From Schumannella soli (GTDB lineage Bacteria > Actinomycetota > Actinomycetes > Actinomycetales > Microbacteriaceae), in assembly GCF_006517435.1 (NCBI RefSeq), contig NZ_VHQG01000004.1, positions 62,001-126,000 on the forward strand: a stretch of DNA of 64,000 nucleotides. Reading direction: 5' to 3'. Both the position numbers and the translations under genes were made by a program. The notes under the pieces were generated by a model that saw only the letters and a program-made list of their open reading frames with translations, did no database searches and was not told the origin of the DNA. Shown here in pieces: positions 22,395-43,599 of the stretch. Numbering within the stretch: the first letter of the stretch is position 1; each line of letters begins with the position of its first letter.

Positions 22395-22412
22395 CCCGAA
22401 GCCTCAGCAGAA

Positions 22413-22459
22413 CGTCGAAGGGCCCCGCCGCGATCGGATCGCGGCGGGGCCCTTCGACG
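22413..22459. terminator. strong bidirectional terminator
   Basis: Two 22-nt arms (22413-22434 and 22438-22459) are perfect reverse complements around a 3-nt loop. The core is GGGCCCCGCCGCG. It lies between the convergent DsbA-like gene and the small secreted-protein gene and can serve both. Confidence 0.85.
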
Positions 22460-22472
22460 TCGAGTCGCGAGA

Positions 22473-22942: not shown

Positions 22943-22983
22943 GAAAGCGGTCCGCCACGATCGATTCGTGGCGGACCGCTTTC
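22943..22983. terminator. terminator downstream of ndk
   Basis: Perfect 18-nt arms (22943-22960 and 22966-22983, core GCGGTCCGCCACGA) enclose a 5-nt loop. It lies 27 bp past the ndk stop and upstream of the secreted-protein gene. It should end the ileS-folC-DUF4233-ndk transcript. Confidence 0.75.
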
Positions 22984-31650: not shown

Positions 31651-31688
31651 GTTCCGAGGGCGGGGTGACGACACCCCGCCCTCGGAAC
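31651..31688 (+). terminator. terminator of the MHS transporter gene
   Basis: Arms GTTCCGAGGGCGGGGTG (31651-31667) and its exact complement (31672-31688) enclose a 4-nt loop, 33 bp past the stop codon. Confidence 0.8.
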
Positions 31689-38845: not shown

Positions 38846-40879
38846 ATGACCGCCACCCCCTTCTCGCAGCCGAGCACCCTCCCCCACGGGCTCCCGCCCT
38901 TCGCCGAGATCCGCGACGAGCACTTCGCGCCCGCCTTCGAGGAGGGCATGGCCGAGCAGCGGGCCGAGGTCGCGAACATCACGCGGGTGCGGTCGATGCC
39001 GACCTTCGAGAACACGATGGAGCCGCTCGAGCGCTCGGGCCGCATCCTCGACCGGGCCCTGCACGTCTTCTTCAACAAGTCGTCATCCGACTCGAACGAC
39101 ACCACGAACGCGCTCGAAGAGGAGTACGCGCCCAGATTCGCCGCGCACAGCGACGCGATCCGCCTCGACAGCCAGCTCTACTGGCGCGTGTCGACGCTCT
39201 GGGAAGGCCGCGAGAGCGCCGACTGGACTCCCGAGCAGCGCTACCTCGTCGAGCGCTGGCACACCGAGATGACGCTCGCCGGAGCGGGCCTGGACGACGA
39301 GGCCAAGACGAAGCTGAGCGAGCTGAATGCGCGACTGTCGACGCTGACGACGCGCTTCGAGAAGAACCTGCTCGCCGACACGAACGAGCTGGCCGTGGTC
39401 ATCCGCGACCGCGCCGAACTCGACGGACTCGGCGAGGGCGAGATCGCCTCGGCGGCGGAGGCCGCCCGCGAGCGCGGCATCGAGGATGCCTGGCTCGTCA
39501 CGCTGCCGCTGTTCACCGGCCACCCGTGGCTGGCCGCGCTGACCGACCGCGACGTGCGCGAGCGCATCATGACCGCGTCCCGCTCGCGCGGCATCCGCGG
39601 CGGCGAGCACGACAACCGCGAGGTGCTGCTCGAGATCGTGCGCCTGCGCGCCGAGCGGGCCGAGCTGCTCGGCTTCGCCAGCCACGCGGCCGCCGTCACC
39701 GCCGACCAGACCGCGAAGACCCCCGAGGCGGTCGCCGGGATGCTCGAGCGCCTCGCGCCCGCCGCCGCGCGCAACGCCCGCGCCGAGCAGGAGGCCCTCG
39801 AGAAGCAGTCTGGGCAGCCGATCGCGGCGCACGACTGGGCGCTGTTCACCGAGAAGGTGCGGGCCGCCGAGTACGACGTCGACACCGCCGCGCTGCGCCC
39901 CTGGTTCGAAGCCGAGCGCGTGCTGCGCGACGGCGTCTTCTTCGCCGCCGGACAGGTCTACGGCCTGAGCTTCGAGGAGCGCCCCGAGCTGCAGGCGTAC
40001 CACCCCGAAGCCCGCGTCTTCGAGGTCTTCGAGGAGGACGGCAGCGCGCTCGGCCTCTACGTGCTCGACCTCTACACGCGCGACTCGAAGCGCGGCGGCG
40101 CGTGGATGAACCCGCTCATCTCGCAGTCGGAGCTGCTCGGCATCCCCACGTCGATCGTCGTCAACAACCTCAATGTGCCCAAGCCGCCGGCCGGATCCCC
40201 CACGCTGCTGACGCTTGACGAGGTCAACACCCTGTTCCACGAGTTCGGCCACGCCCTCCACGGACTGCTCGCGCACGTCACCTACCCGCGCTTCTCGGGC
40301 ACGAACGTCTACCGCGACTTCGTCGAGTTCCCGAGCCAGGTCAACGAGATGTGGATGCTGTGGCCCGAGGTGCTGGCGAATTACGCCAAGCACGTCGAGA
40401 CCGGCGAGCCGCTCGACCAGGCCATCGTCGACCGACTGCACGCCTCCGAGCAGTTCAACGAGGGCTTCGCGACCAGCGAGTATCTTGCCGCCGCGCTGCT
40501 CGACCAGGCCTGGCACCGGCTCTCGGCCGCCGAGGCGGCATCCATCACCGACGTGGCCGACTTCGAGGCGCGTGCGCTCGCGGCCGTCGGGCTCGACAAC
40601 CCGGCGGTGCCGACGCGCTACTCGTCGACCTACTTCGCGCACACCTTCTCGGGGGGCTACGACGCCGGCTACTACTCCTACATCTGGAGCGAGGTGCTCG
40701 ATGCGGATGCGGTGGAGTGGTTCCGCGAGAGCGGCGGCATGACCCGCGCGAACGGCGACCGCTTCCGCGAGTTCGTGCTCGGCATCGGCGGCTCGCGCGA
40801 CCCGCTGGAGTCGTACCGCGAGTTCCGCGGACGACCCGCTGACCTCTCCCCGCTGCTGAAGCGCCGCGGCCTGGAGTAG
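38846..40879 (+). CDS. M3-family zinc metallopeptidase (peptidyl-dipeptidase/oligopeptidase A type)
   Basis: A 677-aa cytosolic peptidase. The zinc motif HEFGHALHG lies at 465-473, with the third ligand in FVEFPSQVNEMW about 25 residues later. The substrate-closing signature GGYDAGYYSYIWSEVLDADA occurs near the C-terminus. The N-terminal all-helical half (ENTMEPLERSGRILDRALHVFF) is typical of Dcp/OpdA. It degrades short peptides left by other proteases. ATG 38846 matches the family N-terminus (PLPPFAEIRDEHFAPAFEEGM-like); longer frames run through the iterons. It is probably regulated through the 14-bp array. Confidence 0.93.
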   Translation: MTATPFSQPSTLPHGLPPFAEIRDEHFAPAFEEGMAEQRAEVANITRVRSMPTFENTMEPLERSGRILDRALHVFFNKSSSDSNDTTNALEEEYAPRFAAHSDAIRLDSQLYWRVSTLWEGRESADWTPEQRYLVERWHTEMTLAGAGLDDEAKTKLSELNARLSTLTTRFEKNLLADTNELAVVIRDRAELDGLGEGEIASAAEAARERGIEDAWLVTLPLFTGHPWLAALTDRDVRERIMTASRSRGIRGGEHDNREVLLEIVRLRAERAELLGFASHAAAVTADQTAKTPEAVAGMLERLAPAAARNARAEQEALEKQSGQPIAAHDWALFTEKVRAAEYDVDTAALRPWFEAERVLRDGVFFAAGQVYGLSFEERPELQAYHPEARVFEVFEEDGSALGLYVLDLYTRDSKRGGAWMNPLISQSELLGIPTSIVVNNLNVPKPPAGSPTLLTLDEVNTLFHEFGHALHGLLAHVTYPRFSGTNVYRDFVEFPSQVNEMWMLWPEVLANYAKHVETGEPLDQAIVDRLHASEQFNEGFATSEYLAAALLDQAWHRLSAAEAASITDVADFEARALAAVGLDNPAVPTRYSSTYFAHTFSGGYDAGYYSYIWSEVLDADAVEWFRESGGMTRANGDRFREFVLGIGGSRDPLESYREFRGRPADLSPLLKRRGLE

Positions 40880-40912
40880 GTGCAGAGCAGGCGGCGGCGA
40901 CGACGGCATCGG

Positions 40913-41002
40913 CGACGCAACTCAGGAGCGACACAGCTCAGGAGGTCCGCACCGAGACGGGGCGCGCGCCTCGTCTGAGCACGGATCTCCTGAGTTGCGT
41001 CG
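40913..41002. repeat. nested inverted repeat of the CTCAGGA family, left of the monooxygenase gene
   Basis: Outer arms CGACGCAACTCAGGAG (40913-40928) and its exact complement (40987-41002) are 58 bp apart. A second direct unit, CTCAGGAGGTCC (40937-40948), is also complementary at 11 of 12 positions to 40983-40994, so two alternative folds compete. Inner arms GCTCAG/CTGAGC (40936-40941, 40975-40980) add a third tier. It lies in the convergent gap between the M3 peptidase and the monooxygenase genes. Beyond it are GCGGC-type simple repeats. Confidence 0.8.
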
Positions 41003-41071
41003 GGGCGGGCGCGGCGCGGCGCGGCGCGCCCGGCGACCGTGGGGCCGTCGGAACGGGACCCCGCGCTCGGC

Positions 41072-42088
41072 TCAGGCCCGGGCCGCGGCCGGGGCGAGCG
41101 CCCGCACGGTGTCCAGCCGATCGCTGAGGCGCGAGCCCTGCACGGCCAACACGATCTCGTCGGCGCCGGTGCGGGCGATGAGAGCGTCCAGTGCGGCCCG
41201 CACCGTCGCCTCCGAGCCGACGGCCTGCTGGGCGAGGCGCGCATCCACCCACTCGGTCTCGGCGGCGGTCCAGGGGTGCTGCTCCGCCTCCTCGATCGTC
41301 GGGATGCGCGCGGGCAGCCGGCCGGTGCGCATGCGCAGCTGCACGAGCGCCTGCGGCAGAGCGCGGCGGCGGGCATCCGCGTCGTCGTCGCCGACCACGG
41401 TCGCGACAGCGACGGCGGATCGCGGCTCGCGCAGCACGACCGACGGCGTGAAGGCCTTGCGGTAGAGATCGAAGACGACGTCGGTCATCTCGCCGCCCGC
41501 GAAGTGATGGGCGAAGGCGAAGGGCAGGCCCATCATCCCGGCGAGGCGCGCGCTGAAGTCGCTCGAGCCGAGCAGCCACAGCTCGGGCGAGTCGCCCATC
41601 CCGGGGATCGCGACGATGCGGCCGCCCTGCCCGCTCTCGAGCGGCGGGATCGTGCCGAAGTAGGCGAGCAGCTCGATGACCTGGTTCGGGAAGTCGTCGA
41701 CCGTCTCGGCGCCGACGTTGCGCCGGATCGCCGCCGACACGGTCGGATCGGTACCCGCGGCGCGCCCGAGGCCGAGGTCGATGCGGTCGCCGTGCAGGGC
41801 GACGAGGGTTCCGAACTGCTCGGCGATCACGAGCGAGGAGTGGTTGGGCAGCATGACCCCTCCCGAGCCGACGCGGATGCGCTCCGTCGCCGCCGCGATC
41901 GCGCCGATCAGCACGGCGGGCGCCGAGCTGGCGATCGAGGGCATGCCGTGGTGCTCGGCGACCCAGAAGCGGGAGTAGCCCGCTGCATCCGCCGCCTGCG
42001 CAACCGCGATGGTCTCGGCGAGGGCGGAGGCGTGGTCGCCGCCGCTGACGATGGGGGCGAGGTCGAGGATCGAGAGGGGTGCGCTCAC
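41072..42088 (-). CDS. luciferase-like (LLM class) flavin-dependent monooxygenase
   Basis: A 338-aa TIM-barrel FMN enzyme. It shows [22 protein letters not shown] at the N-terminus, [29 protein letters not shown] (about 39-67), and [26 protein letters not shown] (about 71-96). [14 protein letters not shown] and [16 protein letters not shown] follow, all typical of the alkanal-monooxygenase-like (MsnO8/YwnB) branch. It lacks a flavin reductase neighbour. The gene is flanked on both sides by CTCAGGA-type inverted repeats. Substrate is unknown. Confidence 0.9.
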
Positions 42089-42111: not shown

Positions 42112-42408
42112 GCTCAGGATTCCGCGGGTCAGTCGGCGGCGCGGCGGCCGAACCGAACTGGTGAGCGGACTCGTCGTCCTCCGCTCTCCCTCCGCGACCC
42201 AGGTGCTTCGCAATTCAGGATCGGTTTCGCAATTCAGGATCAGCGGCGGGATCCGCACGGATAGCGGCCGGAATCCCGGTCGGATCCTGAATTGCGCGGC
42301 GACGGATCCTGAATTGCGGTCGGGCCGGCGAACTCAGGGCACGACGCGTCGGGGTCGGACGCCCGGATCCAGCGCTCAGGGATCCGCGGGTTAGTCGGCG
42401 GCGCGGCG
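42112..42408. repeat. 297-bp composite repeat: 35-bp direct repeats enclosing four CAATTCAGGATC units
   Basis: Copies at 42112-42146 and 42374-42408 match at 32 of 35 positions (for example CCGCGGGTYAGTCGGCGGCG). The right copy is the 3' end of benE including its stop codon; the left copy repeats the same last codons with TGA in place of TAA. Between them are two direct units GCAATTCAGGATC (42210-42222, 42229-42241) and two inverted units CGGATCCTGAATTGCG (42281-42296, 42303-42318). A degenerate unit, GCGAACTCAGGGC, lies at 42328. No gene is supported between 42089 and 42390. Confidence 0.75.
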
Positions 42409-43599
42409 ACGCCCGACGCGCAGCACGAGCATGATCGCGCCGCCGGCGAGGAGTCCCCACACGGCCGAGCCGATGCCCGCGACGCTGACGCCCGAGGCGA
42501 CGACGAGGAAGGTCGCGATCGCGACGACGCGGTTCGGCACCTCCTCGAGGGCTCCGGCGATCGCGGTCACGAGCGCGCCGAGCAGGGCGAGACCGGCGAC
42601 CGACTCGATGAGGATGGGCGGACTCGCGCGCACCAGCGCTCCGGCGACGCCCGCACCGAACGCGAGCACCAGGTAGGCGACGCCACCCGTCACCGCGGCG
42701 ATCCAGCGGCGGGCATGCGGCGTGTGCGAGTCGGGGCCGGCCATGATCGCGGCGGTGAGGGCCGAGAGGTTCACCTGGAACCCGCCGAACGTCGACGTCG
42801 CCGCCGAGACGATGCCGGTCGAGGCGAGCAGCGTGCGGGTCGGCGCGGCGTCGTACCCGAAGGTGCGCAGCACCGTGAAGCCCGGGATCTGCTGCCCGGC
42901 CATCGTGACGAGGTAGAGCGGCACGCCGAGGCCGACGATCAGCGCCGGGTCGAAGCTCGGCGCCGTCAACGTCACGACGGGGGCGAGCGAGGCTCCGTCG
43001 GCCCAGTCGGGTCCGGCGGCGACGAGCACGGCGACCGCGGTGGCGACCACGGCGGCGGGCACGGCCCAGCGCGGCGCGAGGCGGCTCAGCACGAGCCAGA
43101 CGACGATCGGCGGCAGCGCGAGCCAGGGATGCTCGACGCTCGCGGTGACCGGCGCGACGCAGATCGGGAAGAGGATGCCGGCGAGCATCGCACTCGCGAT
43201 GGGCTTCGGGATGCTCGTCGCCAGCCGGGCGAGCCAGGGCCAGAAGCCGGTGATCGCCATGAGGGCCGAGGCCACGAGGAAGGCGCCCACCGCGCCCGAG
43301 TAGTCGTGTCCCTTCGTCGCGGCTCCCGCGGCCACGAGGACGGCGGCGCCGGGCGTCGACCACGCGAAGGAGAGCGGCATGCGGAACCGCAGGCTCAGCA
43401 CGATCGCGAGCACGGCCTGGCCGAGGCAGAGCGCGAGCAGCCCCGAGGCGGCCTCGGCGGGCGTGGCGCCGACGGCGGTGAGCCCGGCGATCACGAGCGC
43501 GAACGAGCTCGCGAAGCCGGTGACGGCGCCGACGAGCCCGGCGGCGATCGGCGCGGCGAGGGAGGAGGGCGCGGAGGCGGGGCGGTCACCGGCTGTCAT
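42391..43599 (-). CDS. BenE-family benzoate/H+ symporter-like transporter
   Basis: A 402-aa membrane protein with about 12 helices. Family segments include GLVGAVTGFASSFALVIAGL, MPLSFAWSTPGAAVL (about 73-87), IPKPIASAMLAGILFPI, GVPLYLVTMAGQQIPGFTVLR and STFGGFQVNLSALTAAI. Relatives import benzoate, but no aromatic-degradation genes are nearby, so the true substrate may differ. The ATG start precedes a short polar N-terminus. Its 3' end takes part in the 35-bp direct repeat. Confidence 0.9.
   Translation of the reverse strand: MTAGDRPASAPSSLAAPIAAGLVGAVTGFASSFALVIAGLTAVGATPAEAASGLLALCLGQAVLAIVLSLRFRMPLSFAWSTPGAAVLVAAGAATKGHDYSGAVGAFLVASALMAITGFWPWLARLATSIPKPIASAMLAGILFPICVAPVTASVEHPWLALPPIVVWLVLSRLAPRWAVPAAVVATAVAVLVAAGPDWADGASLAPVVTLTAPSFDPALIVGLGVPLYLVTMAGQQIPGFTVLRTFGYDAAPTRTLLASTGIVSAATSTFGGFQVNLSALTAAIMAGPDSHTPHARRWIAAVTGGVAYLVLAFGAGVAGALVRASPPILIESVAGLALLGALVTAIAGALEEVPNRVVAIATFLVVASGVSVAGIGSAVWGLLAGGAIMLVLRVGRRRAAD

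Follow-up and report, generated by a model that had tools for sequence, protein, structure and literature searches.

Short elements built from two inverted 11-bp arms (GCAAYTCAGGA) at a span of 66-67 bp are dispersed in several genomes of the Microbacteriaceae, and the window, by which the whole 64,000-nucleotide stretch analysed is meant, carries two such units and extra half-sites. Comparison of sequences indicates that each element is probably a place of fixed geometry, with two half-sites, for a cognate protein that joins an AbiEi-type winged helix to a Vsr-like (EDxHD) nuclease domain and whose own gene is bracketed by the same elements. Neither the fixed length nor the linked nuclease gene had appeared in the earlier note on this DNA, which had described the first element as a three-tier inverted repeat.

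The inverted repeats of the window

The elements of the window lie next to and between three genes, as follows:

38846-40879, + strand: M3-family peptidase gene (PF01432, E 5.9e-113; scan from 38849)
40917-40927, + strand: extra half-site GCAACTCAGGA, an exact match, 16 bp before the start of the canonical unit; with 40988-40998 it forms the core of the 16-bp outer arms
40933-40998, unstranded: element 1, canonical 66-bp unit of type A, with arms ACAGCTCAGGA (40933-40943) and TCCTGAGTTGC (40988-40998)
41072-42088, - strand: luciferase-like monooxygenase gene between both elements (PF00296, E 8.1e-37)
42210-42220, + strand: extra half-site GCAATTCAGGA, left of element 2
42229-42295, unstranded: element 2, canonical 67-bp unit of type B, with perfect arms (42229-42239 and 42285-42295)
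42307-42317, - strand: extra half-site, right of element 2
42391-43599, - strand: BenE-type transporter gene (PF03594, E 2.6e-84), its 3' end towards element 2

The perfect outer arms of 16 bp that had been reported are real: 40913-40928 and 40987-41002 are complementary at 16/16 positions with 58 nt between them, and none of 50 dinucleotide shuffles of the window produces a perfect inverted repeat of at least 16 with a loop of 3-100. The real window contains three further perfect repeats of that arm length elsewhere, all with short loops. Long perfect short-loop hairpins at 22412-22460, 22943-22983 and 31651-31688 have the appearance of ordinary terminator-type stems. The second unit (40929-40944) can indeed replace the first in pairing, as had been proposed, with a duplex energy of -25.0 versus -30.4 kcal/mol and forced folds of -54.2 versus -55.4 kcal/mol; the free fold (-58.7) combines portions of both alternative pairings. 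The family-type unit is formed by the second left copy and the right arm, the outer left copy being the extra half-site, and the stop codon of the peptidase gene is followed on its 3' side first by this half-site and then by the unit.

The core also recurs past the monooxygenase gene, again in agreement with the earlier description: GCAATTCAGGA is found there four times (42210, 42229, 42285 and 42307), twice on each side of the second element. CTCAGGAG alone is no rarer than chance in the window (4 found, 2.6 expected); CAAYTCAGGA is enriched (6 found, 0.05 expected). The monooxygenase gene has its 3' end towards element 1 and its start towards element 2; the start of its homologue in genome G268 (locus L126) is likewise adjoined by an element, and element 2 differs by one base from the copy that adjoins the same gene in G001.

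An ordinary hairpin terminator, or an RNA switch, serving the genes of the peptidase and the monooxygenase would fit the location 3' of a stop codon and the strong predicted RNA folds, which reach -62 kcal/mol (z -5.1) for 40905-41010 and z -7.0 for the region across the monooxygenase gene with the GCAATTCAGGA copies. This explanation is nevertheless very improbable: no T-run follows either arm of element 1 or element 2, the symmetry is two-directional, the spans are fixed at 66/67 and 78 bp, and two sets of relatives lack any pairing constraint (see below), which contradicts the reading for the family. Rfam covariance models at gathering scores recover three tRNAs from the window and match neither element.

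Distribution and anatomy of the elements

In the window's genome (G000, 3.68 Mb), GCAAYTCAGGA with at most one mismatch occurs 42 times on both strands, 17 of them exact, versus 21 times for the reversed pattern. A relaxed scan of sampled stretches recovered 12 paired units, including both of those in the window; the count is a minimum, since 12 of the 42 matches have no sampled stretch. Seven of the units, element 1 included, were grouped by hand as type A (64-66 bp). Among 299 genomes of the Microbacteriaceae, the paired exact pattern is present in ten, belonging to 6 of 85 genera (G268, 52 units; G129, 17; G001, 8; G002, 5; G000, 2; five others, 1 each), and the reversed control in none. 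At a fixed gap and up to three mismatches, matches extend to 24 of the 299 genomes and 15 of the 85 genera, where single matches may be due to chance because the reversed control also gives one match in each of three genomes. A shorter core, sought across the order, was found in 4 of 396 genomes, all of them Microbacteriaceae, and in 0 of 362 outside the family. The suspected repeat family thus exists, with at least 12 units in the window's genome and 52 perfect ones in the relative G268, and the genome search proposed as its test returned copies beyond those of the window, with arms that are not confined to the terminator of the monooxygenase gene.

Named records with units (33 stretches) come from Schumannella, Homoserinibacter, Frigoribacterium, Microbacterium, Agreia, Subtercola, Frondihabitans, Agromyces, Humibacter and some MAGs, and the distribution is patchy within genera. 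A Eubacterium MAG (L074) was rejected as a probable chance terminator with longer complementary arms in an A+T-rich surround. Viral contigs gave 47 matches of a loose pattern, and no viral relatives of the nuclease-family protein described below were found; plasmids (2 records) and phages (1 record) gave short weak matches only. No clean empty site, free of any element, was found. In Frigoribacterium sp. Leaf186 (L085, L101), units lie in local repeats with nearly identical interiors, so local duplication also multiplies elements. One contig of 3.4 Mb holds eleven ACAACTCAGGA-like variant units inside about 104 kb (G294:C1:2415521-2519246); the spread in G268 is even. A different dispersed inverted repeat, GAGTTGCCCRCTTC..GAAGYGGGCAACTC, which has a shorter loop than the elements but shares GAGTTGC with them, occurs in G000 and Schumannella sp. 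10F1B-5-1 (L010, L019, L029, L031, L094); it may belong to yet another gene of the nuclease family, and a separate relaxed scan found none in the window.

The length of the units is tightly defined. The 52 perfect units of G268 measure 66 bp (24), 67 bp (27) or 65 bp (1), and their number stays at 52, all of 65-67 bp, when the allowed gap is widened to 30-60. G268 and G129 together contain 30 tandem pairs, with linkers of 16 bp (24), 17 bp (5) and 27 bp (1), and 11 single units. The interiors of the 52 G268 units are not mutual copies, no pair being more alike than column-shuffled controls (best identity 0.68, a value that the shuffled null reaches as well). Nor are they self-complementary: own halves pair at 6.71 of 20 positions versus 7.51 with the halves of other units (permutation p 0.997), and 64 units of a second, 78-bp type, introduced below, likewise have no preference for their own halves (p 0.93). 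An RNA hairpin as the selected feature is thereby rejected for these two sets, and the cruciform or RNA switch favoured in the earlier note finds no support for the family as a whole. In the window's genus, the interiors are partly palindromic, the type A copies resemble one another, and own-pairing is weakly preferred (p 0.044 and 0.14 with 12 units each, 24 of the 25 listed units); a hairpin may be present there.

A second regularity is helical. Along the unit, maxima of A+T content follow one another at intervals of about 10 bp, in G268 as well as in another 52 units from elsewhere (G129 and the window's genus included), with a Fourier power at 10.5 bp of 0.36-0.39 against a shuffle maximum of 0.03; the 78-bp type reaches 0.125 against 0.012, and in all three sets the power exceeds that of all 500 shuffles. 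Interiors that are unrelated and non-self-complementary, yet phased at 10 bp between persisting arms of persisting span, suggest that the unit is a site for a DNA-wrapping protein rather than an RNA stem. In tandem pairs, the top strand is C-rich in 28/30 first units and G-rich in 27/30 second units; this bias is seen in convergent and tandem settings, continues into the adjoining flanks, where C prevails to the left of the element and G to the right, and falls to about zero past about 100 bp. Loop-loop pairing within tandem pairs was rejected, as the eight most similar pairs listed, with reverse complements counted too, contain no neighbours. The C-to-G skew would suit a Rho site and the phasing a gyrase site; attC and chromosome-organisation sites were further classes considered for the elements.

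Probable nuclease genes and their flanking repeats

The 668 proteins predicted close to elements include three families that recur under four genus labels each, although two of the labels, Microbacterium and g85, are possibly one genus. One of these families consists of proteins of about 300 aa with an MTES_1575/DUF559 nuclease domain and an AbiEi-type winged helix, and in G268 and G129 its genes are bracketed by elements. In this family, 47 of 50 members match MTES_1575 at E 0.01, 42 match DUF559 and 31 match AbiEi_4, the last often under the curated cut-off of Pfam; the PADLOC AbiEi model PDLC02225 also matches 31/50. Profile matches to the PDB include 3hrl (E 1.1e-9) and 3r3p ('Mobile intron protein', E 4.4e-4), which we take to be the catalytic domain of I-Bth0305I. 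Residues E199, D226, D238 and D251 are present in 51/51 members, H243 and D255 in 50 and E236 in 46; since the catalytic residues are almost invariant, the family protein is likely to be an active nuclease. An MTES_1575 domain in a 1362-aa open frame of the window's genome (G000:C6:952536-952826) is separate from this small family.

A profile (A1) was built from five members picked beside elements in G268, G129, G592, G503 and Microbacterium Leaf288, and gave matches in 14 of 15 genomes searched (55 rows, from which 30 loci were taken). The best family member is bracketed by elements in six of eight element-bearing genomes (G129, G268, G592, G503, G002 and G001), a result that is partly circular because A1 stems from element-adjacent proteins, G001 and G002 being the independent cases. 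For the two others, G000 and G277, no gene flanked by elements of matching arm type was found, and the remaining 24 of the 30 loci have no bracketing elements, save for a weak match with 4 mismatches in L244. In G268 and G129 (L105/L139), the nuclease gene ends inside an element and takes its final codons and stop from it (..NSGEIVRRARRRLDAAGIS in G268).

A comparison of left and right flanks showed that many of the 30 members are accompanied by inverted arms of other types. A strict form of this test demands that the same 8-mer stand 20-85 nt from its reverse complement in the left and in the right flank. Of 51 family loci of the Microbacteriaceae, 28 pass and 23 fail; those that pass have an identical, locus-specific inverted pair on each side of the gene. 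Without the five A1 founders, 24 of 46 pass. Only 2/245 controls pass, both being family genes caught among the controls, and none of 20 weak homologues outside the Microbacteriaceae does. The 28 loci are not independent, as family genes often sit at syntenic loci, and by hand they fall into about 16 syntenic groups. On a tree of the 51 members, close relatives mostly have common arms (an informal comparison).

The arm variant beside a gene agrees with that of the dispersed units where both were listed: AACTCAGGC stands beside the gene of G503 and in 10/10 listed units (of 15), and AATTCAGGAGAT beside the gene of G592 and in 5/5 units, the gene-flanking ones included. Arms read from gene flanks moreover predict dispersed repeats. 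The arms GAAATGCAGG and GAAACTCAGG, combined in one pattern and sought in ten genomes, are dispersed in nine of them with 2-37 copies (G000, G001 and G002, 12 each; G004, 37; G268, 14; G129, 36; G228, 18; G061, 14; G181, 2; G003, 0); the reversed control gave 0 in all. Among the matches listed are 75 units, all from G268, G129, G228 and G061 and with one or both arms of the GAAATGCAGG type, which span 78 bp (65), 77 bp (5), 79 bp (4) or 76 bp (1). The 64 units of 78 bp among the 67 of these that were analysed form the A+T-phased, unpaired set referred to above. G061 (genus g58) has 14 such units and no family gene at E 1e-10, and its elements are a second candidate for orphans.

The first case is the window's genome itself, which has no A1-type cognate gene. 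Its two family members are more distant: L229 is an open gene of the GAAACTCAGG type with catalytic residues kept and with adjoining elements of 77 and 78 bp, and at L241 arms are seen loosely. At one locus of G001 and G002 the order is flank, element, gene, element, flank; the orthologous place of G000 (C1:186082-186169) reads flank, one 66-bp element, flank. Arm mismatches are present in 10 of the 12 units of G000, and its elements resemble orphans whose arms are decaying, the cognate gene apparently being gone; a contrast in arm decay with G001 and G002 is biased, because their units were mostly found by requiring perfect arms.

Decay of sites after gene loss would also be expected from an addiction or sponge arrangement, in which the free nuclease is harmful and the dispersed sites hold it. 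The kept catalytic residues and the mismatched arms of the gene-less window genome agree with this arrangement, which we nonetheless consider improbable: the G001 and G002 units provide no fair contrast, and one lost site among dozens would hardly matter, so that selection on any single site should be weak, contrary to the conservation of places described next.

Conservation, position and comparison with known systems

Where orthologous places of different species and genera were aligned (seven alignments of G268 with G129, Homoserinibacter gongjuensis or Micrococcales bacterium 72-143), arms and span are kept and most interiors are scrambled. The interiors of one pair (L105/L139) are still visibly similar; four of the seven alignments have a pair in G268 and a single unit in G129, and synteny in L115/L135 is confined to one flank. 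Captured spacers of the CRISPR type were considered, as interiors differ between orthologous places, and were set aside because interiors are A+T-phased and those of L105/L139 are still visibly alike.

According to a crude, purpose-made gene caller, the 41 clusters of the 66/67-bp type in G268 and G129 lie mostly tens of bp off a stop codon, 19 between convergent, 21 between tandem and 1 between divergent genes. The 42 clusters of the 78-bp type, from 40 chosen stretches, comprise 15 convergent, 18 tandem and 9 divergent settings, none inside a called gene; 52 element-free gaps in loci of both types comprise 5, 27 and 20, respectively. No shared function emerged from the scan of 22 neighbouring proteins. 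Such placement could mean that the elements serve the host at gene 3' ends, where a bound protein would insulate or terminate transcription between neighbours or set a topological boundary. We hold this to be possible, though tentatively: the strand bias described above and the conservation of single places are in its favour, but the 78-bp type is less biased in position, the elements are patchy within genera, one of the 41 clusters (L122) falls within a called gene, and a selfish element tolerated off promoters would give the same picture.

Somewhat less likely is that the elements are selfish in the manner of REP/REPIN sequences, i.e. non-autonomous mobile pieces that a transposase copies by acting on their hairpins, so that the ends are kept for mobility and the spacer drifts. 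The extragenic inverted doublets of fixed spacing, their clusters and the gene beside its own repeat type are as for REPINs and RAYTs (PMC3116915), and the resemblance of type A copies in the window's genus and the solo element where relatives bear the gene would fit too. However, two sets of units lack hairpin pairing, the G268 interiors are not mutual copies and orthologous places are kept across genera. A RAYT partner was rejected, as Y1_Tnp has no match in the nine element-bearing genomes tested and matches in one of 14 genomes in all, namely G003, where the element searches found none.

The preferred reading, a two-half-site place for the cognate nuclease, could operate in the following manner: Two protomers would bind the inverted arms, which would serve as half-sites of the winged helices, and wrap or bend the phased interior, the span reflecting the reach of the dimer. 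The spans of 66-67 and 78 bp are about one helical turn apart. The nuclease domains would thereby be brought near the centre of the unit, either to nick it or merely to hold DNA at gene ends; the benefit may fall to the cell or to the element. This explanation leaves the origin of the non-copied interiors and of dozens of identical arms unaccounted for. A wider proposal, which we regard as evenly poised, is that an undescribed gene-repeat class exists in the Microbacteriaceae in which a nuclease gene, standing between copies of its own site, phased and ruler-like, seeds and maintains genome-wide sites, protein and arms co-evolve, several systems that differ in their arms coexist in a genome, DNA is wrapped into a nucleoprotein that has the nuclease at its middle, and loss of the gene leaves a solo element behind.

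The data suggest that gene and repeat are partners in a way that has not been seen so far; no description of such an element-nuclease system was found in the open-access PMC literature, where absence is weak evidence. If true, it would assign these bacteria's DUF559/MTES_1575 proteins a first role. With their constant length and helical phasing, the elements lend themselves to a sharp and testable model of how a small protein wraps DNA, and the orphans in the window's genome illustrate what may happen after gene loss.

The elements differ from Rho-independent terminators in the absence of a T-run after the stem of elements 1 and 2, and from MITEs in that the G268 copies have no common interior, although in the window's genus the type A copies are similar to one another. 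E. coli BIMEs are intergenic palindromic, protein-binding modules close to gene 3' ends, a position shared by the elements, which differ in sequence, geometry and linked gene. Known AbiEi proteins, which act as antitoxins in type IV toxin-antitoxin systems, bind to inverted repeats and also bend DNA (PMC7319586); the family protein shares their N-terminal winged helix, but here it is fused to a nuclease domain, and the candidate sites are chromosome-wide rather than limited to its own promoter. The EDxHD homing endonucleases, with the Vsr-like fold and the prototype I-Bth0305I, belong to the same nuclease superfamily by profile and share the conserved E, D, H and D; the prototype dimerizes on a target of nearly 60 bp (PMC3943268). 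Unlike these, the genes described here are chromosomal, encode an AbiEi-type domain and have dozens of further sites in the same genome, and the gene does not split its own site: a complete element stands on each side, and the gene-less locus of G000 contains one complete element. REPINs and REPs with their RAYTs come closest, as dispersed extragenic doublets with a gene beside its own repeat type; the partner here is a winged-helix Vsr-like nuclease, no RAYT being present in the element-bearing genomes tested, and the interiors of two sets are phased at 10 bp and form no hairpin, those of G268 being non-copied. A REP-type pairing of a gene with dispersed repeats of its own has been described for one enzyme class, the RAYTs, and a second, unrelated class with its own sites would, if true, mean that such partnerships evolved more than once.
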